Of a DNA stretch of 39,455 bases, positions 3,703 to 27,367 are shown one piece after another. The DNA is from a virus. Position 1 is the first letter of the stretch. Every line of letters begins with the position of its first letter. The position numbers were made by a program, and so were the translations under genes. Where the stretch lies: the IMG/VR virus record IMGVR_UViG_3300035145_001618, positions 1 through 39,455 of that record; one strand, given 5' to 3'. Under the pieces are notes generated by a model. That model did no database searches and was not told the DNA's origin. It saw only the letters and a list, made by a program, of their open reading frames with translations.

Positions 3703-5142
3703 ATGGAAGAAATTTATACACTATTAGCAGGAACATTATACGGTCTAATTGTAGGTCTAGTACCCAGTGCTGGAGCAACAACAGGATTAGTAGCCTTATT
3801 TGGATTTATCAGTTACTTTGGATTTGATCCTTACTTAGGCGTAATATTTTGTATGGCAGTAGTAGCCGCCAGTACAACAGGCGACACATACTCAGGTGTG
3901 CTTTTAGGAATTCCAGGTGCTAACAGTGCCGCGGCAACTATGGTTGACGGATATCCTTTAGCAAAACAAGGCAAAGCCACTTATGCTTTAACGGCCGCAA
4001 TCACAACTTCAACACTTAATGGATTAATTTGGGGTACATTAACCTTTGCTTTATTGCCTTGGTATGTACAACTTATTATGTACTTTGGTATCCCAGAGCT
4101 CTGGGCTTTTGTAATGTTAGCCCTTGCTTGTGTAGGATTTGTTAGTAATAGATATTGGGTTAGAAGTATTATAGCAATCATGATAGGATTGATAATTGGA
4201 CTTATAGGTGTTGACCCAGCAACGAATGTTGATAGATATACACTAGGTTGGGACTACTTGGCAGATGGAGTTCAACTACTTCCTTTTGTTGCTGGTTTGT
4301 TTGCCTTCCCAGAAATACTTGATGGGTGGAAACAAGGTAAGAGTATAGCAACAGTAGGAAAAGACAGTCATGGTAAACAAACATGGCAAGGTATAAAAGA
4401 AGTTTGGCGTTGTAAGTGGGACGCTCTAAGAGGTGGTGCCATAGGAGCATTTATTGGTTTTCTTCCAGGACTAGGTGGTGCTATGGGCGATTGGATGGCT
4501 TATGGTTCAACAGTGGCAACACACCCTAAAGAAAAATTTGGTAACGGTAATATCAGAGGAGTAATAGGACCAGAAGGTGCTAACAATTCACAAAAAGCAA
4601 CTAGTATGATACCAACAGTATTGTTTGGTATACCTGGAGCAAGTTTTGCCGCCGTGTTAATGGCGCTGTTTATGTATTTAGGTTTTGAATTAGGTACACC
4701 GGATCTTGCTTACGATACAAGATTTTTTGACAGTTTAACATTTGGCTTTATGTGGGCGACAGTAATAGTTGGTGTCGTGTGTGTAGCGTTTAACAGATAT
4801 ATTGCTAAGATCTGTTATGTACCATACAAGTATTATTTTCCTTTAATTGTAGCATTTATAGTTTGGGCCTGTGTTCAATATACAGGTGGTTGGGAAGATT
4901 ATGCTATACTAGGTATTTGTTCGGCATTGGGTTATTTTGCTAAGAAGTACAAGTTTAGTCGACCTGCTATGTTGATGGCATTTATTCTAGCAATGAAAGT
5001 TGAGGCCTTGACAATCCAGATGACATCGTTGTATAATATACAAATGTTACTACAAAGACCTTTATTTTTAGTATTATGTTTAGCAATTACTTGTTTATTT
5101 CTTTATGGTATTTCTAGAAAAAATAGATTGGAGTATTCGTAA
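3703..5142 (+). CDS. tctA: TctA-family permease of a tripartite tricarboxylate transporter
   Basis: This is the large membrane subunit of a secondary, binding-protein-dependent carboxylate uptake system in the inner membrane. The 479-aa length and about a dozen hydrophobic segments fit the TctA family (about 500 aa). The family's internal duplication is visible. Half one has GLIVGLVPSAGATTG near residues 14-28 and SGVLLGIPGANSAAATMVDG near 64-83. Half two has GFLPGLGGAMGD near 251-262 and TVLFGIPGASFAAV near 305-318. The first-half glycine motif reads PSAG rather than the usual PGLG. There is no clear Shine-Dalgarno before the ATG. The gene is followed, with a TAATG overlap, by a 2OG oxygenase; the binding-protein gene lies 1.6 kb downstream. 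Substrate cannot be read from sequence. Confidence 0.88.
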   Translation: MEEIYTLLAGTLYGLIVGLVPSAGATTGLVALFGFISYFGFDPYLGVIFCMAVVAASTTGDTYSGVLLGIPGANSAAATMVDGYPLAKQGKATYALTAAITTSTLNGLIWGTLTFALLPWYVQLIMYFGIPELWAFVMLALACVGFVSNRYWVRSIIAIMIGLIIGLIGVDPATNVDRYTLGWDYLADGVQLLPFVAGLFAFPEILDGWKQGKSIATVGKDSHGKQTWQGIKEVWRCKWDALRGGAIGAFIGFLPGLGGAMGDWMAYGSTVATHPKEKFGNGNIRGVIGPEGANNSQKATSMIPTVLFGIPGASFAAVLMALFMYLGFELGTPDLAYDTRFFDSLTFGFMWATVIVGVVCVAFNRYIAKICYVPYKYYFPLIVAFIVWACVQYTGGWEDYAILGICSALGYFAKKYKFSRPAMLMAFILAMKVEALTIQMTSLYNIQMLLQRPLFLVLCLAITCLFLYGISRKNRLEYS

Positions 5143-5885
5143 TGATTAGCAAAGACGACATTGACGCCCTTGCAGAAACCCCAGAGCAAAAAGAATATTG
5201 GGGAGAAAGCCGTTGGGAATTTACAAAAAGCAAAAGCAAATGGCATTTTGACCCTAGTTTAAAAACAAAAGACTATAAAGAAGTTTGTACGTTTGATGGC
5301 GAATGGCATAATGAAATATTTGAATGTTTAGGCAGAGTACAAACAAGTACATGGGCAAACAGAAATCAATTTGACGAACGAATTTACAGTGCTACACAAG
5401 AAGAAAACGATTTAATTAATGCTGGTGCTAAACCTGATATGGAAATTTTTAATAGAGCAAAAGCAGAAGATATTCCAGTGTTTCAACGTATAGCAGAATA
5501 CTTTAGTATGAAAGAAGCCACAATAAAATTTCATAATCAAACTACAGGACAACTTTTAAATTGGCATATTGATAACTTTGCTGGGCGTAAAGAACGTGGT
5601 AACAGTTTTACAGAAATAGAAGCAGATAAAAATCCTAATCTAATGAGGCGTTTTGCTATTATGTTAGACGATTGGAGACATGGACAAGTTTTTCAATTAG
5701 GAAACAGCAACTGGCACCAATGGCGAAAAGGTGAATGTATAACTTGGGAGTGGAGAGATATTCCACACGCTACTTGTAATATGGGCTGGGACGATCGTCC
5801 TATGCTACAAGTTACAGGTTGGACAACAGATACAACCAACGATGTTGTACAATTTGGATCTTTTGGAAACGTAGTTAAAGTATAA
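5142..5885 (+). CDS. 2-oxoglutarate/Fe(II)-dependent oxygenase-like protein
   Basis: The protein carries the facial triad of a double-stranded beta-helix dioxygenase: H142-I-D144 (WHIDN), a distal H209 (DIPHATCN) and R219 (DDRPMLQVTGW), which would bind the 2-oxoglutarate carboxylate. Spacing and flanking aromatic strands fit cupin-fold hydroxylases. The N-terminal 120 residues have no recognisable domain. Substrate is unknown; small metabolites, peptides or glycans are all possible. It sits between tctA and a methyltransferase with TAATG overlaps on both sides, so it is part of the tctA transcription unit. A transporter for carboxylates beside an enzyme consuming 2-oxoglutarate is suggestive but not evidence of a shared pathway. 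Confidence 0.7.
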   Translation: MISKDDIDALAETPEQKEYWGESRWEFTKSKSKWHFDPSLKTKDYKEVCTFDGEWHNEIFECLGRVQTSTWANRNQFDERIYSATQEENDLINAGAKPDMEIFNRAKAEDIPVFQRIAEYFSMKEATIKFHNQTTGQLLNWHIDNFAGRKERGNSFTEIEADKNPNLMRRFAIMLDDWRHGQVFQLGNSNWHQWRKGECITWEWRDIPHATCNMGWDDRPMLQVTGWTTDTTNDVVQFGSFGNVVKV

Positions 5886-6577
5886 TGAACACTAAAATTT
5901 TAGACAGGCTTTGTATTATGTTTAAATCTAGTCCTCAGTTAATGGATAATGATGAGCTATTACAACAAGCAATCAACGGTACCTTTGGTGTTGACATTAA
6001 AGATATTAAGTTTACTAATGTAAAACAGTTAACGGAACTTACTCATTATCACGTGCTTAAAAAATATTTTACTAGTGTTTGGCAACCTATCACAAAAAAG
6101 TACAAGTATAGTGGGTTAAGTATTATAGATGAAGTTAACAACTTAAAGCCTTTAAAAGTTTTAGACTTAGGCTGTGGTTATAACGAATTCAAAGGAAAGA
6201 TCAACAACTTAATTGGTGTAGACCCGTACAATGAAAGAGCAGATATAAACAGCAGTATACTAGAATATAAGTCATCTGAACAATATGATGTTACTATTTG
6301 TTTAGGTAGTATTAATTTTGGTACTGTAGACAAGATATATGCTGAATTAAAAAATGCTGTTAACTTAACAAAGCCCAACGGTTTATTATATTTTAGAGTT
6401 AACCCAGGAGAACAGCACAAGGCTCCTGAAGCACAATGGATAGAGTTTTTTAATTGGACTAATGAGTTTATTATTAATTCTGCTAGTGCTTTAAATTGTA
6501 GTATTTTAACCCTTGAACAAGAAGTTAATGATAGAGGCGTCAGATATTACTTTGTGCTAAGAAAGAACGATAAATAA
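5885..6577 (+). CDS. SAM-dependent methyltransferase, class I
   Basis: A Rossmann-fold methyltransferase with motif I VLDLGCGYNEF around residues 93-103, an acidic post-I strand (LIGVDPYN) and motif IV region YDVTICLGSINFGT. About 90 N-terminal residues precede the core, including KYFTSVWQPITKKYKYSG. The core is clearly related to the methyltransferase at 9368-9964 (shared GCG.NEF, LGS.NFGT and the NPG motif), so the two are paralogs bracketing the transporter/sulfotransferase block. The substrate is not apparent. It is co-translated with the oxygenase upstream (TAATG). Confidence 0.8.
   Translation: MNTKILDRLCIMFKSSPQLMDNDELLQQAINGTFGVDIKDIKFTNVKQLTELTHYHVLKKYFTSVWQPITKKYKYSGLSIIDEVNNLKPLKVLDLGCGYNEFKGKINNLIGVDPYNERADINSSILEYKSSEQYDVTICLGSINFGTVDKIYAELKNAVNLTKPNGLLYFRVNPGEQHKAPEAQWIEFFNWTNEFIINSASALNCSILTLEQEVNDRGVRYYFVLRKNDK
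6569..6576 (+). promoter_or_regulatory. Late-type promoter box GATAAATA
   Basis: GATAAATA matches the T4-family late consensus (TATAAATA, NATAAATA in marine relatives). It overlaps the end of the methyltransferase gene and lies about 150 nt upstream of the tctC-like gene, which begins a new transcription segment after a gap. Three other such boxes in this window also precede genes. An 8-bp match in AT-rich DNA can arise by chance. Confidence 0.35.
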
Positions 6578-6613
6578 AATTGTAATACAGAGCTGTATTA
6601 TTACTTCACAATT
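6578..6613 (+). other. Nested inverted repeat in the tctC leader
   Basis: TAATACAG (6583-6590) pairs with CTGTATTA (6593-6600) around only 2 nt, and an outer pair AATTGT (6578-6583) / ACAATT (6608-6613) encloses it. Because the inner loop is so short, this reads better as a protein-binding dyad than as an RNA hairpin, although a slightly opened hairpin is possible. It sits just downstream of the late-type box and upstream of tctC. Confidence 0.45.
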
Positions 6614-6674
6614 ACACAAACTTAGACGAGTGTCAGGGTTCGAAGTGTAAAAATAATCAAACACATTAAAATAA

Positions 6675-6698
6675 AAAACACAAGGTTTTGTGTGTTTT
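6675..6698 (+). terminator. Hairpin just upstream of the tctC ribosome binding site
   Basis: AAAACACA (6675-6682) pairs with TGTGTTTT (6691-6698), so the A-rich arm and T-rich arm could act as a weak bidirectional terminator for the tctA-oxygenase-methyltransferase unit. Alternatively it shapes the 5' leader of tctC, because the Shine-Dalgarno AAAAGGAG begins only 13 nt later. The low GC content makes strong termination doubtful. Confidence 0.4.
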
Positions 6699-6724
6699 CT
6701 CATATCAAATAAAAGGAGATAAAA

Positions 6725-7777
6725 ATGAGATCAATCAAAAAATTAATCTTAGGTGCTGTAGCATCTGTAATGATTAGTACTTCGGCAATGGCAGACTATA
6801 CGTTTGTAATTCCTCAAAAGCCAGGTGGCGGTACTAGTGTATGGGCAGAAATTATTGCCGGACAACTAGAGCCGTTTTTAGGCGAGAAAATAAAATTACA
6901 ACATTATCCAGGAGCAAGAGATATCCCTGGTTTTAATAAATGGCACAACGAATTACGTGGTGATGACAACGTAGTTATGGTATCACATGGTGGTAATGGT
7001 GTTGCTTTTTTACAAGAAAACGTTGATTATAACTATGCTGATTATGAGTCAATTGGTTTAATGAACTTGAACATTATTGCCGGCAAGGCAAAAGGTGCTG
7101 ATATGGACAACCCATCATTTGCGGCAGGTTCAGGTATGGTACCAGAAGCATTTGCTTTTACTATGTTAATTTGTGGACCAGATAAATCTATTGACGAGTA
7201 CACTGCTTGTTTCAAAGAAAAAGTAACATGGGTAAAAGGTATGTCAGGCGGTGAAAGACGTTTAGCATTTAAACGTGGTGAACTAAATGGCACTAGAGAA
7301 AATCCAGCGGCATATAAAAAACACGTCGAACCAAATGAAAATGCTGAAGTGTGGTTCCATCATGGTATTCTACAAGCAGACGGAAGTCATGCTGATGATC
7401 CAAACTACCCAGGCTTCCAGTTTGAGATTCTTTTCGAACAGCGTTGGGGTGTAGCACCTAGTGGTGATATGTATGATGCTTATAAACTTGTTAAATCATT
7501 CCGTGATGGTTTACAAAAAGCGTTATGGGTTAACAAAGGTAATCCTAATAAAGCAGAATTAGTTAAAGCACTAGAAAAAATGTCAAATGACCCAGATGCT
7601 ATGGCGGCCATTGCCAAAAAAGTAGGAAACTACGATTGGGTTATTGGCGATGCTGGTGATTCTCACAGAGATACACTAATGACTTTTATTACAGAAGATG
7701 CTTTAAAAAATCTTGTTAAGTTTAACACAGAAGCATTAGGATTGTCTAGTGTATACAAAGACAATTTAGTAAAATAA
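6725..7777 (+). CDS. tctC: Periplasmic substrate-binding protein, TctC/Bug family
   Basis: This is the extracytoplasmic receptor that captures a carboxylate and delivers it to TctA/TctB. A textbook signal peptide is present: MRSIKK, a hydrophobic core, then AMA-DY with probable cleavage after residue 23. The mature N-terminus FVIPQKPGGGTSVWAEIIAG matches the TctC start pattern (P-GGGTD..AR..A), with Ser in place of the usual Asp. A PGA motif follows (HYPGARDIPG). At 350 aa it is slightly longer than the usual 320-330. A strong ribosome site (AAAAGGAGAT) precedes the ATG, and a structured 147-nt leader separates it from the upstream methyltransferase. The next gene starts 1 nt after its stop. 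The family call is good but the sequence is divergent, so substrate prediction is not possible. Confidence 0.82.
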   Translation: MRSIKKLILGAVASVMISTSAMADYTFVIPQKPGGGTSVWAEIIAGQLEPFLGEKIKLQHYPGARDIPGFNKWHNELRGDDNVVMVSHGGNGVAFLQENVDYNYADYESIGLMNLNIIAGKAKGADMDNPSFAAGSGMVPEAFAFTMLICGPDKSIDEYTACFKEKVTWVKGMSGGERRLAFKRGELNGTRENPAAYKKHVEPNENAEVWFHHGILQADGSHADDPNYPGFQFEILFEQRWGVAPSGDMYDAYKLVKSFRDGLQKALWVNKGNPNKAELVKALEKMSNDPDAMAAIAKKVGNYDWVIGDAGDSHRDTLMTFITEDALKNLVKFNTEALGLSSVYKDNLVK

Positions 7778-7778
7778 C

Positions 7779-8132
7779 ATGATTGAGTTAGCGATTGCTA
7801 ACGTAACTTATGTACTTTATAGACTAGCGGTTTCCGGACCGCTAGTTAAGTTCTTAAACAAATATCTTTCGTATTATGTTGCTGTTTTTATAATGGCACA
7901 GTTGAGTTTTATATACGATAATTTCATATTTTACAACTATTTTGAAGCAAATGGCTTTTTATGGCTTGACATCATAGTGGCTGATGTGTTATACTCTATA
8001 AGAGTTTTAATGGCATGGTGGGTCATAAAACAGTTATGGAATTGGATTGGCAATTATTGGATAGCAGTATTTTTAGGTGCTGAGTTGACATTTGTTGTTG
8101 ATTACTTTATAATAGGAAGTGTATACACATGA
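7779..8132 (+). CDS. Small integral membrane protein in the TctB position
   Basis: A 117-aa hydrophobic protein with about three to four membrane spans (near residues 5-20, 32-50, 62-85 and 92-112). TctB subunits are poorly conserved four-span proteins of about 140-160 aa encoded beside tctC, so position and topology fit a short TctB. Sequence alone does not prove it. The start is 1 nt after the tctC stop, which implies co-translation, and its own stop overlaps the next gene. Two Trp-rich loops (AWWVIKQLWNWIGNYW) are notable. Alternatives include an unrelated phage membrane protein, but the fused arrangement with tctC favours a transporter subunit. Confidence 0.55.
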   Translation: MIELAIANVTYVLYRLAVSGPLVKFLNKYLSYYVAVFIMAQLSFIYDNFIFYNYFEANGFLWLDIIVADVLYSIRVLMAWWVIKQLWNWIGNYWIAVFLGAELTFVVDYFIIGSVYT

Positions 8133-8728
8133 AAAATTGGATTTTCTTTACAGGAGCACCCGGTAGTCGTTGGAGTGGTGTAAGTCAAACAATTAGAGAT
8201 AATTGGGATAATGTAGACAACACAGATTTAACAGAAGATAAAAAATACACACATCACAAATATAGTGGCCACATTGGAAACTATTACGGGCCTGATATGT
8301 TAAACGGTCAATGGTTAGATAATTCGTTTGGCACTAATCGTATGTGGGAAGAAGAAATTAATAAAAGTTTTCACGGACCAGAGAATAGTTGGAAAGTTAT
8401 TTTAAGTCATCATTTTGCTTATCATTTAGAACAAATTAAAAAACAATATCCAGATAGTAAACTGGTAATGTGCTGGCGCCCAGATTCTGTATGTTATGAC
8501 TGGTGGCACGAAGCAGGTGGCTGGGATATTAGTTACCCAAATTATAGTTGGTATGAAAATAATAATAAAATGTGGGAAGAAATCTGTACACAAAACAGAG
8601 CCATACTTGAATTTGTATACAAGCATAATCTCACTTTTAGAAAACCAGGACGAGAATGGTTTAGAAATACTTGGGGTGTAGATAAAGATTTTATTTTTGA
8701 AAAGGACGTTTGGATCGCCGAATGCTAG
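8129..8728 (+). CDS. P-loop sulfotransferase-like protein
   Basis: The N-terminus IFFTGAPGSRWSGVSQTI resembles the 5'-phosphosulfate-binding loop of PAPS-dependent sulfotransferases. The stretch KLVMCWRPDSVCYDWW (about residues 111-126) resembles the 3'-phosphate-binding strand-helix (R-x-x-x-x followed by polar residues). The protein is small (199 aa against 250-350 for most sulfotransferases) and very rich in Trp. It overlaps the TctB-like gene by 4 nt (ATGA). The role could be sulfation of a glycan or small molecule. A different P-loop transferase or kinase cannot be excluded. Confidence 0.5.
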   Translation: MKNWIFFTGAPGSRWSGVSQTIRDNWDNVDNTDLTEDKKYTHHKYSGHIGNYYGPDMLNGQWLDNSFGTNRMWEEEINKSFHGPENSWKVILSHHFAYHLEQIKKQYPDSKLVMCWRPDSVCYDWWHEAGGWDISYPNYSWYENNNKMWEEICTQNRAILEFVYKHNLTFRKPGREWFRNTWGVDKDFIFEKDVWIAEC

Positions 8729-9357
8729 GATTAACAGTCATATATGACACAGGTGCTGGTGGACAATATTTAAGTGGTGCTATTGCTACTGCTTTAGGTG
8801 ACGCTGTAGCACCTTTTGAGTTTCATAAAAAAGACTTTGATAAAGATGGTGTTAATCTACAAAATAGAAACAGATGGTTTTTCAATACAAAAAATTCAGA
8901 CTATAAAGAAGATAAAGTAAACATTTATGTTTCTGGACTTCATGCTAACCCTTTAGACTTTCATAAAAGCAATGGCCACACATACTTTGATCGAATAATA
9001 AAGGTAAAAATTGACTGTAGTACTCTTTGGGAATTTAGCATGATAAGTTTTAACAAGCATATTAAAAATAATCCAGATACTGACACTGTAAGATATCTTT
9101 CAGATTTTTTTAACTTCAAAAGGCCAACTGTTTGTGATTTTGATTTGACTTTTGAGAGAGACTGTACTGGTTTAGATTTTGACGTATATTTTCCTTATAG
9201 GGCATTTTACGATGTACAAAGACAAAAACAATTCTGTAAAGAATTAGAAAGTAAACTTGACAAATCTGTAGACTATACTATATTCTCTAGTATGTGTAGA
9301 CAGTATGTTAAAGGAAATACTAAACTATATAACGATTATTTGATAAGGGATTTTTAG
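8722..9357 (+). CDS. P-loop-like protein, possible sulfotransferase relative
   Basis: The start is placed at ATG 8722, overlapping the upstream stop by 7 nt; an in-frame TTG lies 12 nt upstream. The N-terminus LTVIYDTGAGGQYLSGAIATAL has a strand-loop-helix with GAGGQ, closely resembling [15 protein letters not shown] in the gene at 34656. The two probably share a fold, although each lacks the GKS/T of a classical Walker A. No other motif is recognised. By neighbour and N-terminal pattern it may belong to the phage sulfotransferase-like group, but the reaction is unknown. Confidence 0.5.
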   Translation: MLGLTVIYDTGAGGQYLSGAIATALGDAVAPFEFHKKDFDKDGVNLQNRNRWFFNTKNSDYKEDKVNIYVSGLHANPLDFHKSNGHTYFDRIIKVKIDCSTLWEFSMISFNKHIKNNPDTDTVRYLSDFFNFKRPTVCDFDLTFERDCTGLDFDVYFPYRAFYDVQRQKQFCKELESKLDKSVDYTIFSSMCRQYVKGNTKLYNDYLIRDF

Positions 9358-9367
9358 TGAATGATTT

Positions 9368-9964
9368 ATGATAGATAGAGACAAACTAAATGATTACTTT
9401 GGAAATCATTGGAAAAGAGATAAGGAGGGTAATAAAGTGGATAAGGCAACAGTAAACAAGTACTTTGGCAATAATTGGAAACCAGACTACAAGCATTATG
9501 AGTATAGTGGTTGGGCGTTGTTGGACAAAGTAGGACCTACAGATACAGTAATTGACATTGGGTGTGGGTTTAATGAATTTAAAGAAAAGTTAGGTGACCG
9601 ACTATATGGGTTTGACCCTGCTAACGATAAAGCAGACGAGGTAGTTGGTATTGAAGAATTCGAAGCAAATGGTAAACAATGGGATATAGCATTTGTTTTG
9701 GGTAGTTTGAACTTTGGAACAGCAGAAGATGTTGAACCACAAGTTGAAAAAGCAGTCAGTCTTGTAAAACCAGGCGGTATGCTGTATTGGAGACAAAATC
9801 CAGGTTTAGGCGACCATCCTTGGAAGGGAGTAGAAGAAATTAAGTTCTTTCCGTGGACATTTGACCTCAATTACGAATGGGCTGAAAAATACGGCTGTGA
9901 TGTACTTGAGTGTAAGTGGGACGCCAAAAGCGACAGAATATACTCGGAATGGAAAAAAAGATAG
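9368..9964 (+). CDS. SAM-dependent methyltransferase with duplicated N-terminus
   Basis: The core has motif I TVIDIGCGFNEF, post-I LYGFDPAND and WDIAFVLGSLNFGTAED, followed by GGMLYWRQNPG. It is a paralog of the 5885-6577 methyltransferase. The N-terminus is odd: LNDYFGNHWKRD is repeated 23 residues later as VNKYFGNNWKPD. Between them the DNA AAGGAGGG (9422-9429) forms a strong Shine-Dalgarno seven bases before an in-frame GTG at 9437, whereas the first ATG (9368) has no good ribosome site. The main product may therefore start at 9437 (175 aa, a single repeat copy), with 9368 giving a longer form. Substrate unknown. Confidence 0.78.
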   Translation: MIDRDKLNDYFGNHWKRDKEGNKVDKATVNKYFGNNWKPDYKHYEYSGWALLDKVGPTDTVIDIGCGFNEFKEKLGDRLYGFDPANDKADEVVGIEEFEANGKQWDIAFVLGSLNFGTAEDVEPQVEKAVSLVKPGGMLYWRQNPGLGDHPWKGVEEIKFFPWTFDLNYEWAEKYGCDVLECKWDAKSDRIYSEWKKR

Positions 9965-9973
9965 ACAATTAGG

Positions 9974-10002
9974 TTGACTTTGTTACTGTGATCGTATATT
10001 AT
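9974..10002 (+). promoter_or_regulatory. Sigma70-type early promoter upstream of gp32
   Basis: TTGACT (9974-9979), 17-nt spacer, TATTAT (9997-10002). The -10 lies inside an inverted repeat TGTTACT (9981-9987) / AGTAACA (10003-10009), so a repressor or activator could act here. It lies about 150 nt upstream of the gp32 start. Confidence 0.65.
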
Positions 10003-10062
10003 AGTAACATGATTAAGCGGCCTAAGTATTTTTTCAGAAAAGAAGGGTTCTTTTTTGGAAAT

Positions 10063-10070
10063 GATAAATA
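10063..10070 (+). promoter_or_regulatory. Late-type promoter box GATAAATA upstream of gp32
   Basis: The same octamer as at 6569, about 83 nt before the gp32 start and downstream of the early promoter. This would give gp32 expression in both phases of infection, which fits a protein needed throughout replication. Confidence 0.45.
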
Positions 10071-10152
10071 CTAACGTTAAAGTACAGTTGGAACTGATAC
10101 TTTATCAAGGCAAAAGTAAAAAACATAAAAGGCAATATAGGAGGCTAACATT

Positions 10153-11154
10153 ATGGCAACACTTGCAGAAATCCGTGCTAGGCTACAAGCACAAGAAACA
10201 CGCCAATCAGGCGGTAGCAACACAGGCGATAACGCCATCTTCCCCCACTGGAATATTCAAGAAAATGAAACAACCGTTTTAAGGTTTCTACCTGACGGCA
10301 ATGCTTCAAACACATTCTTTTGGGCAGAACGTCAAATGATTCGTTTACCTTTCCAAGGTATTAAAGGCGAAGTTGACAGTAAACCTACAACTGTACAAGT
10401 TCCTTGTATGGAGATGTGGGAACCAACAGGATCATGTCCAATTTTATCAGAAGTACGTCCATGGTTTAAGGATGCTTCGTTGGAAGATCAAGGTCGTAAA
10501 TATTGGAAAAAGCGTAGTTATGTATTCCAAGGATTTGTAAGAGAAAATCCATTGAATGAAGATACTACTCCTGAAAATCCAATCAGAAGATTTATTATGG
10601 GACCTCAACTGTTTAATATTATTAAAGCAAGTTTGATGGATCCAGAAATGGAAGAACTACCAACAGATTATACTGCTGGACTAGACTTCCGTGTAACTAA
10701 AACAACCAAAGGTGGATATGCTGATTATTCTACTTCTAAATGGGCAAGAAAAGAAAGTGCTCTAAGTGAAGCAGAAGCAAAAGCAATCGAACAAAATGGT
10801 TTGTTTAACCTTAGCGAATTCTTACCTAAGAAACCGTCAGAAACAGAATTGAATATTATCAAGCAGATGTTTGAAGATTCAGTCGACGGCAAGCCTTACG
10901 ATACTGAGAAATATGGTGCTTATTATCGTCCGGCGGGTGTAAGTGCTCCACAGGGTTCAACAGTTTCAACTCAAACAGCAACACCGTCTCCCGCTCCGGC
11001 TTCACAGCCAGTTGCTCAAGAAACTACAGAAACAGCAACCCCAGAGCCTATTCAAACTGAGCAGGCTCCAGTGGCACAGGCCCCAGTCGAAACTACATCA
11101 CCTAAGAAAGCAGATGATATCTTAGCGATGATTAGAGAAAGACAAAACAAGTAA
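10153..11154 (+). CDS. 32: Single-stranded DNA-binding protein gp32
   Basis: This protein coats single-stranded DNA during replication, recombination and repair, and works with UvsX/UvsY encoded just downstream. The N-terminal LAEIRARLQAQE helix resembles the cooperativity domain, and the core has FLPDGN...FFWAERQMIRLPF. Of the T4 zinc ligands only two cysteines are visible (C85 and C95, with the X9 spacing of T4 Cys77/Cys87). The His64 and Cys90 equivalents appear absent, so zinc binding may be altered. A low-complexity Thr/Pro/Gln/Ala-rich linker (about 255-315) leads to a C-terminal helix ADDILAMIRERQNK instead of the very acidic T4 tail. The ribosome site TAGGAGGC is strong. Confidence 0.9.
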   Translation: MATLAEIRARLQAQETRQSGGSNTGDNAIFPHWNIQENETTVLRFLPDGNASNTFFWAERQMIRLPFQGIKGEVDSKPTTVQVPCMEMWEPTGSCPILSEVRPWFKDASLEDQGRKYWKKRSYVFQGFVRENPLNEDTTPENPIRRFIMGPQLFNIIKASLMDPEMEELPTDYTAGLDFRVTKTTKGGYADYSTSKWARKESALSEAEAKAIEQNGLFNLSEFLPKKPSETELNIIKQMFEDSVDGKPYDTEKYGAYYRPAGVSAPQGSTVSTQTATPSPAPASQPVAQETTETATPEPIQTEQAPVAQAPVETTSPKKADDILAMIRERQNK

Positions 11155-19014: not shown

Positions 19015-19802
19015 AGATAATTATGGTAACAGGAGGGTTTGATCCCCTACACAGTGGACACATTGCCTATTTTAAGGCCGCAAAAGCCTTAGGTGATAAA
19101 CTTGTTGTTGGTTTAAACTCTGATGAATGGTTAGAACGTAAAAAAGGCAAAGCATTTATGCCTTGGAATGAACGACTTGCTATCATAAACAATTTAGAAA
19201 TGGTAGATGAAGTGTTTACGTTTATGGATGACGATAACACAGCAATAAATTTTATAAAACAGGTTAAAGCACACTATCCAATTACAGCATACGAGTTAAT
19301 TTTTGCTAATGGTGGCGATAGAACTAAAGATAACATTCCAGAAATGGTATTTGATGATGTAGAATTTGTATTTGGTGTTGGTGGCGAAGATAAAAAGAAC
19401 TCTAGCAGTTGGATATTAGAGGAATGGAAAGCACCAAAAGTAGAACGTAGTTGGGGGCATTATAGAAATTTGTATAAAGGTAAAAACTTTATGGTAAAAG
19501 AGTTAGTTATTAACCCTAACAGCAGTTTATCAATGCAAAGACACAAATATAGAAGTGAAACTTGGAATTTAGTTAGTGGCAATGCTCAAATATTAGCAAA
19601 ATGGGGAACTGGTGATCCTTATGATGGTCCGGCTGTGTGGGAATTACATCCTAATAACCCTGTAGACATAGGCGTAGGCTATTGGCACAAAGGTAGAAAC
19701 ATTACAGATCATCCAGCACACATAATTGAAATATGGAAAGGGCCTACAGATAAATTAACAGAAGATGATATAGAAAGGTGGGAAGATGATACATCCAATT
19801 GA
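19011..19802 (+). CDS. Cytidylyltransferase-cupin fusion (sugar-nucleotide enzyme)
   Basis: The N-terminal domain (about 1-130) is a HxGH nucleotidyltransferase: TGGFDPLHSGHIAYF with H14-S-G-H17, VVGLNSDEWLERKKG and the ERLAIINNL helix, as in HldE/RfaE2- and glycerol-3-phosphate-cytidylyltransferase-type enzymes. The C-terminal domain (about 150-250) is a cupin like mannose-6-phosphate isomerase type II: FMVKELVINPNSSLSMQRHK, ETWNLVSGNAQI and a distal histidine in GVGYWHKG. The fusion would make or tailor an activated sugar for neighbouring glycosyltransferases. Which sugar cannot be told. The overlap with the previous gene is 4 nt. Confidence 0.82.
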   Translation: MKIIMVTGGFDPLHSGHIAYFKAAKALGDKLVVGLNSDEWLERKKGKAFMPWNERLAIINNLEMVDEVFTFMDDDNTAINFIKQVKAHYPITAYELIFANGGDRTKDNIPEMVFDDVEFVFGVGGEDKKNSSSWILEEWKAPKVERSWGHYRNLYKGKNFMVKELVINPNSSLSMQRHKYRSETWNLVSGNAQILAKWGTGDPYDGPAVWELHPNNPVDIGVGYWHKGRNITDHPAHIIEIWKGPTDKLTEDDIERWEDDTSN

Positions 19803-20445
19803 ACCAACAGCGTTACCTAAATCAATAGAAGGCGGATATCAGCCAGACTGGTATGAGAGGGATTACTTTTTAAGTGTTGACGGGAACAAAGAATTTCCAG
19901 GGCATCACTGTAAAGTTACATGGTTAGCAAGTGTTCCATACATTGATTCATATAATAATGCTATTGATATTGGCTGTAGAGATGGAGAATATAGTAGATA
20001 TCTTGCAAATAACTTTAATCATGTATATTGCTTTGACTATAGACCAAGAGCATTGTTTAACTATAATATACCTTTAGACAAAATAACATTGTTTCATACA
20101 GCACTAGGAGAAACTGAAACAACAGTTATGGCTAGCGGCGGAGCAAATATGATGGCGGCCAGAGCCGGCGGCGAACTTACTGCTTGGAAAGAACAAAAAG
20201 TTTATGCTTTGGATCAGTTTAATATACCTAATGTAGATTATATTAAAATAGATGTTGACGGTTTTGAAGAAAGAGTATTAACTGGTGCTAAGGAAACTAT
20301 ACTAAAACATAAACCTGTTTTAGTAATAGAAGATGACAAAACAATAGCTCATTCGGGAGTAGAATATTGTCAACAACAACTGAATTATAAAATTGTTGCT
20401 TGGGATAAATTTAAAAAGAACGTGGTGATGAAATATGAAGAATAG
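19786..20445 (+). CDS. FkbM-family methyltransferase
   Basis: The class I/FkbM pattern is present: NAIDIGCRDGEYSRYLA (motif I), VYCFDYRPRALFN (post-I acidic residue), then VDYIKIDVDGFEERVLTGAKE, the signature KxDxxGxE block of FkbM enzymes. These typically O-methylate sugars or small molecules. It is the first of three FkbM-like genes in the operon (others at 20435 and 22735). It overlaps its neighbours by 17 nt upstream and 11 nt downstream. Confidence 0.8.
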   Translation: MIHPIEPTALPKSIEGGYQPDWYERDYFLSVDGNKEFPGHHCKVTWLASVPYIDSYNNAIDIGCRDGEYSRYLANNFNHVYCFDYRPRALFNYNIPLDKITLFHTALGETETTVMASGGANMMAARAGGELTAWKEQKVYALDQFNIPNVDYIKIDVDGFEERVLTGAKETILKHKPVLVIEDDKTIAHSGVEYCQQQLNYKIVAWDKFKKNVVMKYEE

Positions 20446-21076
20446 AAGCGGTTGGTGGTTGCCAGATTATGATACTCATTTTGAAAAACATATTTTTGAA
20501 GGGAGTTATCAAAAAGCAAGTAGAGATATTACTCTCGAGTATGTAAAAGATTTTAACGTAGAAGCAATAGATGTAGGTGCTAACGTGGGTTTATGGACAA
20601 AGCCTCTTTGTGAGAAATTTACCCATGTCCATTCATTTGAACCGTTTGATGATAACAGAGAATGTTTACAAAAAAATGTTACCACTAACAATTACACACT
20701 GTATGATGTAGCATTAGGAAGTGAACAAAAAGAAAACCAATCTCTGTATTCAAGTAATAAAAATTGTGGTGCTGGAAGTTTAGATAAAGAATGGGCATCT
20801 ATAGATAGTGGTAAAACAACATCAGTAGTTACATTGGACAGTTATAACCTAACTAATATAGGATACATGAAAGTAGATGTACAAGGAACTGAAAAAGACG
20901 TAGTACTAGGATCGTTAGAAACCTTAAAGAATAATGATGTGTGTTTGGTAGTAGAATTGCCTAGACGTAATGAAAAAGAAATACAAACCCATGCTGAAAT
21001 AAGAAACATACTAGAAGAAATCGGATACCATTGGCAACCAAAACAATTTAAAAAAGAGGCAGTGTTTTTAAAATGA
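20435..21076 (+). CDS. FkbM-family methyltransferase
   Basis: EAIDVGANVGLWTKPLCEKF (motif I), HVHSFEPFDDNRECLQKN (post-I) and IGYMKVDVQGTEKDVVLGSLE (FkbM KxDxxGxE) make the family clear at 213 aa. The neighbouring gene at 19786 encodes a divergent relative, so the pair may act on different positions of the same glycan. The stop overlaps the SGNH-like gene (ATGATGG). Confidence 0.82.
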   Translation: MKNRSGWWLPDYDTHFEKHIFEGSYQKASRDITLEYVKDFNVEAIDVGANVGLWTKPLCEKFTHVHSFEPFDDNRECLQKNVTTNNYTLYDVALGSEQKENQSLYSSNKNCGAGSLDKEWASIDSGKTTSVVTLDSYNLTNIGYMKVDVQGTEKDVVLGSLETLKNNDVCLVVELPRRNEKEIQTHAEIRNILEEIGYHWQPKQFKKEAVFLK

Positions 21077-22037: not shown

Positions 22038-22738
22038 TCAATGTAGCGTGTGTTTGGATACCACCAAAGTATGATGTAGATTATGTATTTAAACTTAAAT
22101 CATCTGTTGACAGGCATCTATCAAAAAAATATAAATTCCATGTTTTAACAACACACCCCCAATTAATAAAAGATTCTAATATAAATGTAATACCTATTGC
22201 TGAAGATGAACGTATTAATTCTCATCCTCGAGGCAAATGGTGGTATAAAGCAAACTTGTTTGCTCAATTGAATTGGCAAGGTAGAGTTTTATATTTTGAT
22301 TTAGATAATGTTATTATTGGCAACCTTGATAAGTTAGTTGAATACGAAACAGATGATTTTATAATATGTCAAGATTTCAACAGGCACGGCAACCCGGAAT
22401 ATCCAGTTTGTAATAGTAGTGTTATGTGTTTTAATGCTAATAACTATACAACTTTTTTTGATAAATGGCAAACAGAAAAAGACACTATAATTAGAAAGTA
22501 CAAAGGCGACCAAGATTGGATTACAGTAATGTTAGGTAGTACTAAAAAATGGTGGCCGTATAATTGGGTTATGAGTTACAAATGGGAAGTTCTAAATGGC
22601 GGTCTAGCACGTTTAGGATCTAAAGAATACAGAAGTGATGTAACAACAGTTGACCCACAAACCAGCGTCTTAGTTTTTCATGGAAAGCCTAATCCAGATG
22701 AAGTAACAGACGATATAATTGTAAGTAATTGGAAATGA
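22034..22738 (+). CDS. GT-A glycosyltransferase-like protein
   Basis: GRVLYFDLDNVIIGNLDKL contains a DxD (DLD) at the end of a hydrophobic strand, typical of GT8-like and related GT-A enzymes. CNSSVMCFNANNY is the following donor-site strand, GDQDWITVML the acceptor region, and VLVFHGKPNPDEV the terminal metal-binding His segment. It is the third GT-A enzyme of the operon and about the same length (234 aa) as that at 18328. Its stop overlaps the next gene (ATGA). Confidence 0.8.
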   Translation: MINVACVWIPPKYDVDYVFKLKSSVDRHLSKKYKFHVLTTHPQLIKDSNINVIPIAEDERINSHPRGKWWYKANLFAQLNWQGRVLYFDLDNVIIGNLDKLVEYETDDFIICQDFNRHGNPEYPVCNSSVMCFNANNYTTFFDKWQTEKDTIIRKYKGDQDWITVMLGSTKKWWPYNWVMSYKWEVLNGGLARLGSKEYRSDVTTVDPQTSVLVFHGKPNPDEVTDDIIVSNWK

Positions 22739-23565
22739 TAAAAACAAAAGATTGTAAACACGGTAAATTTACTTTTTTTGAAAACGACACAGTTGTTGGA
22801 AAAAGTTTAAATGTATACGGAGAATATTGTGAATGGGAAATAATGTGCTTAGAACATATTATTGAACCAACTTGGCATATTATTGATATAGGAGCAAATA
22901 TAGGTACTCATACAATACCTTTTGCTAAAATGGCATATAGAGGTTATGTTCATGCTTTTGAACCTAATGAATTTAGTAGAGGATTACTAGAAAGAAATTT
23001 GTTAGATAATAAAGTAACAAATGCTACGAGTTATCCTTATGCTATTACTAGAAGCAATGGTAAAGGATATTTAGGATCATACAATATAGCAGTTCCTGGA
23101 AATTATGGCGAAGTTTCTTTACTTGATTCTGCGGCGAATATGTCGTTAGTTGATACTATGAGATTAGATGCTATAACATTTGAACAAGTAGATTTAATTA
23201 AAATGGATATTGAAGGTGCTGAACCAGATGCTTTAAAAGGAGCCAAACATTTACTAGCAAAATATTTGCCTACTGTTTTTGTAGAATGTAATAAAACTGA
23301 AAATGTAAAAAAACTTTATACAAGATTTAAAAAACTAGGATATCATAAAATGTATTGGTGTCCTGTTAGGAATTATAATCCAGATAATTTTTATGGGAAT
23401 AACAGTAATGTATTTGGAAGTAGTGGCGTAATAAACTTGCTATTTCTTTCACCAAAACTTAAAGTACGATTTGATTACTTAGAGCCTATAATAGACGAGA
23501 ATGATACCTATCAAAAAATGTATGCTAGAGTTTCTTCAGATCATAAAGCAAACAGATTACTTTAA
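22735..23565 (+). CDS. FkbM-family methyltransferase
   Basis: The start is set at ATG 22735, giving an ATGA overlap; an in-frame TTG lies 6 nt upstream. WHIIDIGANIGTHTIPFAKM (motif I), YVHAFEPNEFSRGLLERN (post-I) and VDLIKMDIEGAEPDALKGAK (FkbM motif) are all clear. It carries an extra C-terminal stretch of about 75 residues containing a Tyr/Asn-rich segment (VRNYNPDNFYGNNSNVFG). It is the last gene of the plus-strand operon and converges with the minus-strand block, the stop codons overlapping by 4 nt. Confidence 0.83.
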   Translation: MIKTKDCKHGKFTFFENDTVVGKSLNVYGEYCEWEIMCLEHIIEPTWHIIDIGANIGTHTIPFAKMAYRGYVHAFEPNEFSRGLLERNLLDNKVTNATSYPYAITRSNGKGYLGSYNIAVPGNYGEVSLLDSAANMSLVDTMRLDAITFEQVDLIKMDIEGAEPDALKGAKHLLAKYLPTVFVECNKTENVKKLYTRFKKLGYHKMYWCPVRNYNPDNFYGNNSNVFGSSGVINLLFLSPKLKVRFDYLEPIIDENDTYQKMYARVSSDHKANRLL

Positions 23566-26569: not shown

Positions 26570-27367
26570 TTAATCAATTCTCACATATTTTTCGTTGGCA
26601 CTATCCCAATCAACAAATTCACCCCACCATTGTCGTCTCCAACTATTTGCTGTAATATCTGCCCAGACAGTTTCGTCTGGAGTGCCACTAGCAATCATAT
26701 GGTATCTTGTTTCGTTAGAATTATTTTTAACCATGTGATAGTGATTGTTACCAAATAGCCACATAGTACCATCTTTACAAGGAACGTTACCCCAAAGTCC
26801 CATATTAAAGAAACAGTGCTCTGGATTGTTAAGAGCAATATTAACAACTCCTAAATCAAATGTAGGATCTTCGTTATCGGGTACATCATTATGCCAACGA
26901 ATAATACCACCAGGTGCTAGTTTCATAAATCTAATTCTATTGTATCTTTTGTAACTAAATTGTTCTTTAAAGAATTTTGTTGTAATAGGACATTGGTCAG
27001 CAATTTCTGTCCAATGTAGGGCACCTGCTTCTCTGGCTTCTTTGTAAGAAGAGTATCCGTATTCTTCTGGGGGTAGTGTAGAATCGCTACTTAACCCGTA
27101 AAGTGCTACAGCAGACCATCCTATATTGTTACCTGAGTTATAATCTGGGATTAACCCTTGTTCGTCTAAGGCTTTTGCTTCAGCCAACATTTCTTTATGT
27201 GGCCATTCTGGAAAGTCTAACATTAACCAAGGTAGGCCCATTCCAAAGTGCTGGTCTGTATCTGGATGATTGTTGTCTCTGATCCAGTCATATATTTGTT
27301 GGTTGTCGGTAGCATCGATGCCAAAGTCTTGCATCATTGGTATTAATTTATTGTCTATTTCTGGCAT
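26570..27367 (-). CDS. Aspartyl/asparaginyl beta-hydroxylase-like 2OG-Fe(II) oxygenase
   Basis: The fold and family signature are visible: RIRFMKLAPGGIIRWHNDVP, with H159-N-D161 (HxD), then VVNIALNNPEHCFFN and LFGNNHYHMVKNNSNETRYHM, giving the distal H211 and R221 for 2-oxoglutarate binding. The 265-aa length suits a single-domain Asp/Asn hydroxylase. Members hydroxylate Asp/Asn in proteins or amino-acid-derived metabolites. It is the promoter-proximal gene of the minus-strand operon, reading left from the promoter region at 27383-27410. Confidence 0.75.
   Translation of the reverse strand: MPEIDNKLIPMMQDFGIDATDNQQIYDWIRDNNHPDTDQHFGMGLPWLMLDFPEWPHKEMLAEAKALDEQGLIPDYNSGNNIGWSAVALYGLSSDSTLPPEEYGYSSYKEAREAGALHWTEIADQCPITTKFFKEQFSYKRYNRIRFMKLAPGGIIRWHNDVPDNEDPTFDLGVVNIALNNPEHCFFNMGLWGNVPCKDGTMWLFGNNHYHMVKNNSNETRYHMIASGTPDETVWADITANSWRRQWWGEFVDWDSANEKYVRID

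Follow-up and report, generated by a model that had tools for sequence, protein, structure and literature searches.

Jumbo-type, T4-like marine phages probably carry a phage-adapted, working tripartite tricarboxylate transporter (TTT) that imports carboxylate during infection. This reading is based on the identities of the encoded proteins, the phage context, a signal peptide, the fold of the receptor, the pairing of the genes, the selection acting on them and their common origin. The transporter region was found in the window, i.e. the whole stretch of 39,455 bases of virus record IMGVR_UViG_3300035145_001618 (Table 1). The ORF coordinates for TctA, the receptor and the 117-aa gene in an earlier note on this DNA were correct, including the start of the 117-aa ORF 1 nt past the stop of the receptor gene.

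Table 1 Features of the transporter region, with positions in the window
Feature	Positions	Strand	Basis
TctA permease (predicted), 479 aa	3703..5142	+	Pfam TctA, motifs, dN/dS
Oxygenase-like protein	5142..5885	+	HxD...H residues present
SAM-dependent methyltransferase-like protein	5885..6577	+	Methyltransf_23 E 5.5e-5, under curated cut-off
Gap of 147 nt upstream of tctC	6578..6724	.	AGGAG ribosome-binding site
Divergent TctC/Bug solute-binding protein (by predicted fold), 350 aa	6725..7777	+	Fold matches, signal peptide
Four-helix membrane protein, 117 aa, candidate TctB-position subunit	7779..8132	+	Model, linkage

Phage context

The window comprises a 39 kb fragment from the genome of a T4-like, jumbo-type marine phage. 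It encodes T4-like TerL, SSB, UvsX, UvsY and helicase, and its terminase has its nearest relatives in PA5oct-like jumbo phages of Pseudomonas (53% identity). The cassette also occurs on contigs of 183-323 kb, several of which carry a T4-type major capsid protein and a terminase. Because the same cassette was found on many mutually independent contigs, we exclude the bacterial/phage chimera that the earlier note had considered for the window. Among the isolate phages in INPHARED we found no homologue of the receptor or of the 117-aa protein, and the TctA matches were distant records with 25-32% identity. The cassette is also present on a contig of a Pelagibacter MAG (L104), which is possibly mis-binned.

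Permease and receptor

By its sequence, the first ORF is a TctA permease. It matched Pfam PF01970 with an E value of 1.8e-98 and 330 bits (cut-off 28.9) over residues 6-424. The TctA family is marked by a duplicated motif, G-Hy3-G-Hy3-G-Hy2-P-G-Hy-G, in TM1 and TM7 (PMC5812351). Both glycine/proline motif sets, as noticed earlier, are present: the G-x3-G-x3-G-x2-P part occurs at residues 10/14/18/21 and 244/248/252/255 and was invariant in 31 of 31 viral homologues. The full motif sites in the window protein are 10/14/18/21/24 and 244/248/252/255/258, likewise with invariant glycines and prolines, and with P-S-A-G for P-G-Hy-G in the first copy.

The identity of the 350-aa protein as a TctC/Bug-type receptor is well supported by the fold of its structure model (pLDDT 92). 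Neither the window protein nor any of the 33 viral members matched a Pfam family, including PF03401, and at the sequence level a weak match to BugD was obtained (E 0.0098). A Foldseek search with the model returned TTT-type receptors for all of the top 17 PDB matches (MatC, 2dvz, BugD, TphC, Bug27 and others), with an E value of 1.5e-9 at the top, TM scores of 0.50-0.59 and 11-16% identity. Since these leading matches were all TTT-type receptors, membership in another solute-binding family was rejected. Hence, the claim of a phage-borne TTT permease and receptor stands on the Pfam match of the one and the Bug/TctC fold of the other, and neither protein matched a different family better.

The signal peptide reported earlier for the receptor was recognised by inspection: a K-K pair is followed by a hydrophobic stretch and by A-M-A before D. 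Residue A23 was invariant in 33 of 33 homologues, and cleavage is predicted after this residue. Viral and cellular receptors have 24 near-invariant residues in common. In the pocket region, the viral receptors read SHGGN where their cellular relatives have TSAST, and GGGTS where these have GGGTD. Because residues conserved in the cellular relatives are changed, the substrate may differ.

The predicted folding of the gap upstream of tctC was not unusual (z -1.25). A promoter or terminator at this site was considered and rejected, as the signals were no better than chance and no terminator-like site was found.

Conserved pairing and selection

Searches of IMG/VR with TctA yielded 73 loci, and those with the receptor yielded 30. 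TctC was encoded at most 2.3 kb downstream in all 53 viral TctA loci that had enough downstream sequence, and the two genes mostly overlapped by 4-8 nt or lay within ~50 nt of each other. In the reverse direction, starting from the receptor, the pairing was found in 24 of 26 cases. All three genes are under strongly purifying selection, with dN/dS values of 0.09-0.16 for viral tctA, 0.06-0.21 for viral tctC and 0.06-0.21 overall when the 117-aa gene is included.

In the window, an oxygenase-like and a methyltransferase-like gene separate tctA from tctC. This arrangement is peculiar to the lineage of the window and its close relatives, and most relatives have the two transporter genes directly adjacent. 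The intervening genes are insertions within the window's own lineage. The earlier conclusion, which spoke against the copying of one intact host operon, is accordingly misleading, as tctA and tctC are neighbours in most relatives and derive from the same cellular subfamily.

Cellular relatives

Cellular TctA proteins were compared across 398 Pseudomonadota genomes. The top-scoring proteins were permeases of 655-700 aa whose C-terminus is extended by a TctB-like membrane region (TctAB fusions). Viral TctA scored 300-338 bits against these fused proteins versus about 230 bits against ordinary TctA. The neighbouring receptors followed the same division: 13 of the 14 receptors beside TctAB fusions matched the viral TctC profile (E 1e-27 to 3e-16), whereas receptors beside ordinary TctA matched it with E values of 1e-6 or weaker. 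Since the virus-like receptors adjoin the cellular TctA closest to the viral one, permease and receptor share one cellular ancestry. The receptors beside fused TctAB likewise fall under the PF03401 cut-off, although they are annotated as TTT receptors.

In a quick tree, viral TctA formed a single long-branched clade with deep divergence from all cellular TctA, and SAR11 TctA was placed apart from it. On its position in this quick tree SAR11 TctABC was rejected as donor, so the SAR11 source put up for comparison in the earlier note was not borne out.

Three plasmid loci with fused TctAB were inspected. The Thalassospira locus contains tcuA/tcuB (tricarballylate dehydrogenase), a 4-oxalomesaconate tautomerase and an isocitrate/isopropylmalate-type dehydrogenase; the Paracoccus locus contains a 4-oxalomesaconate tautomerase; and the Sagittula locus contains AMP-binding and thiolase genes and no tricarboxylate genes. 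Tricarboxylate-type catabolic genes at two of the three loci suggest tricarboxylate-type substrates.

The 117-aa membrane protein

The protein encoded behind the receptor was modelled with AF2 as four helices (residues 2-26, 32-55, 62-90 and 93-116; pLDDT 79), a predicted number that agrees with the four to five transmembrane helices expected of TctB. The description 'TctB-like' in the earlier note rests on these helices and on the linkage of the gene; no sequence relationship to TctB of the PF07331 type or to the fused TctB domain was detected. The protein matched no Pfam family, including TctB (PF07331), and its model matched no PDB structure. An hhalign comparison with TctB gave a probability of ~0.1%, while the positive control, SAR11 TctB against fused TctB, itself reached just 1.7%. 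TctB is very poorly conserved and is mainly defined by position and topology (PMC5812351). Given this poor conservation and the weak control, the missing profile signal says little.

Most likely, the 117-aa protein stands at the TctB position, a reading favoured by its linkage and topology and by the fact that viral TctA has lost the fused domain. It is rather doubtful, by comparison, that permease and receptor form a two-part transporter and that the 117-aa protein is an unrelated co-traveller of the region, for instance a holin-like or envelope-modifying protein. Such a co-traveller would account for the lack of a sequence or structural match to TctB, an argument that loses force with the weak control described above. 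It would also fit the absence of the gene from 22 of the 23 records picked for TctA/TctC, most of which are fragments but which include one contig of 203 kb. However, an independent search seeded with the 117-aa protein, which yielded 56 loci, led back to the transporter. We scanned 30 records, namely 28 viral contigs from this search and the MAG loci L103 and L104, both without the 117-aa protein; TctA was found in 24 of the 30 and a receptor match in 26 (two of them weak and partial). The gene orders were A-C-B (B being the 117-aa gene), C-A-oxygenase-B, or, in several lineages and more in line with a co-traveller, B at 5-8 kb from tctA/tctC. Because gene order varies, the A/C/B association outlasts rearrangement. 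Moreover, several lineages have the 117-aa gene 0-4 nt from the gene of a receptor, and among them are lake phages, whose receptor is a different, canonical one. An alternative TctB was sought in TctA-TctC loci without the 117-aa gene and rejected, as the small membrane ORF candidates resembled antisense or spurious frames.

The lake-type viral contigs, apparently from lakes (L120, L121, L123, L128 and L129), encode a canonical PF03401 receptor at or near the homologue of the 117-aa protein. In L121 this site spans 9039-10357, and its receptor matched PF03401 with an E value of 7.9e-20. The flanking genes match those of the tctA-tctC-tctB contigs. This arrangement ties the small protein to receptors generally. 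No TctA was found on L121 (63 kb), L123 (56 kb) or L128 (76 kb), all of which are fragments. These related lake phages come closest to the redirection of host receptors that the earlier note put forward as a possibility. One might conclude that receptor and small protein act mainly on host permeases or signalling, by receptor swap or sensing, rather than as part of a self-sufficient transporter, and in bacteria one TctA permease can indeed serve several TctC (PMC5812351). We nevertheless consider this unlikely, because the window and most of its relatives encode their own TctA beside the receptor, under strong purifying selection, and because the lake contigs are incomplete.

It is very improbable that the genes are host passengers, or part of a bacterial/phage chimera, and have no function for the phage. 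The pair on bacterial MAG contig L103, nested in the viral clade, would fit such a reading. Against it, the cassette occurs on dozens of viral contigs that are mutually independent and bear phage hallmarks, its TctA diverges deeply from all cellular TctA, and the genes show low dN/dS and conserved pairing.

Proposed function and relation to known systems

The TctA-TctC pair recurs in dozens of other large aquatic phages, nearly always side by side, and hence infection by these phages probably causes bacteria to take up a small organic acid. For the transporter proposed here we infer that it is active, that it takes a di- or tricarboxylate as substrate with energy-coupled uptake, that the small protein has a role in it and that it brings a benefit. 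The phage receptor would be exported to the host periplasm and bind a small carboxylate. The loaded receptor would then hand the carboxylate to phage TctA in the inner membrane, which would import it by ion-coupled symport, with the four-helix protein most likely taking the TctB position. The infected cell might thereby gain more carbon, or a cofactor-type carboxylate, over a long infection.

Among phage genes for nutrient acquisition, the most familiar ones, such as cyanophage pstS, provide a receptor only. If permease and receptor, probably together with the small subunit, are kept as a unit over many large phages, phages would alter what the infected cell imports and not just its use, which would link marine jumbo phages with the uptake of dissolved organic carbon. 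More tentatively, and with odds somewhat against it, the genes may represent a virus-specific branch of receptor-dependent secondary transporters, whose receptors form a family of their own that Pfam does not cover and whose small subunits form a new family with no relation to TctB. This branch would have been kept and reshuffled across large aquatic phages, with the permease kept or lost and the receptor exchanged, and would control uptake by the infected cell.

Among known systems, the fused TctAB of the Sagittula, Paracoccus, Shinella and Thalassospira plasmids is the best cellular match to viral TctA, and no cellular protein is more closely related to the viral receptor than the receptor encoded beside it. 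In contrast to these proteins, the viral permease has no C-terminal TctB domain and shares just ~35% identity with the fused permeases, and the viral receptor has altered residues in the pocket region. The phage genes share the permease family, the receptor fold and the three-part logic with canonical TctCBA (TC 2.A.80; Salmonella, SAR11), but differ in a receptor without a Pfam TctC match and a small subunit not recognisable as TctB. They also differ from SAR11 TctABC in the position of TctA in the tree. No TctDE-like two-component genes were found in the window.

TTT genes have been noted in marine viral contigs before, one of them myovirus-like. For viral contigs of SUP05, tctA was listed among the putative viral AMGs (PMC4164917), which was repeated in a review (PMC6359870), and 'tricarboxylate transport' genes were named in a norB/nirK myovirus region (PMC8115048). 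In PMC4164917 and PMC8115048 these were a tctA domain match or a passing annotation, and the main texts do not describe receptor pairing, conservation in large phages or a small partner. Such a transporter goes unmentioned in the main texts of three large papers on jumbo phages. Two Bug/TTT receptor-domain proteins of uncultured Caudovirales in UniProt (A0A6J5T247 and A0A6J5L7K0) are viral periplasmic receptors with the same fold but ~14% identity. We found no account of the pair, of its conservation or of the small partner in the open-access literature searched, in which tctA alone was known as a possible viral AMG.

Neighbouring genes and further loci

The oxygenase-like protein matched no Pfam family above the cut-off, and its homologues occur in many of the loci. 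The methyltransferase-like ORF is a paralogue (38%) of ORF 9368-9964. Methyltransferase-like paralogue families are gathered in one stretch of the window (5885-6577, 9368-9964, 19786-20442, 20435-21073 and 22729-23562). Along with them occur genes resembling oxygenases/cupins, one resembling a heptose-1-phosphate adenylyltransferase (19011) and one for an Asp/Arg hydroxylase (26570-27367). The products of ORFs 8129-8728 and 8710-9357, which begin FFTGAPGSRWSG and IYDTGAGGQYLSG, are P-loop (sulfotransferase-like) in appearance. The former adjoins the transporter in many loci and matches no family.

Viral contig L098 carries two different tctC copies (6262-7299 and 8836-9885) on either side of one tctA. 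In L103 (BQJD01000039.1), tctA spans 6506-7945 and tctC 7872-9008, and the contig also carries chromosomal genes (DnaJ-like, YcaO-like, Fe-S oxidoreductase and adenylate-cyclase-like). The L103 pair adjoins homologues of phage ORF 8129 and of the methyltransferase, and is possibly the result of a phage-to-bacterium transfer.
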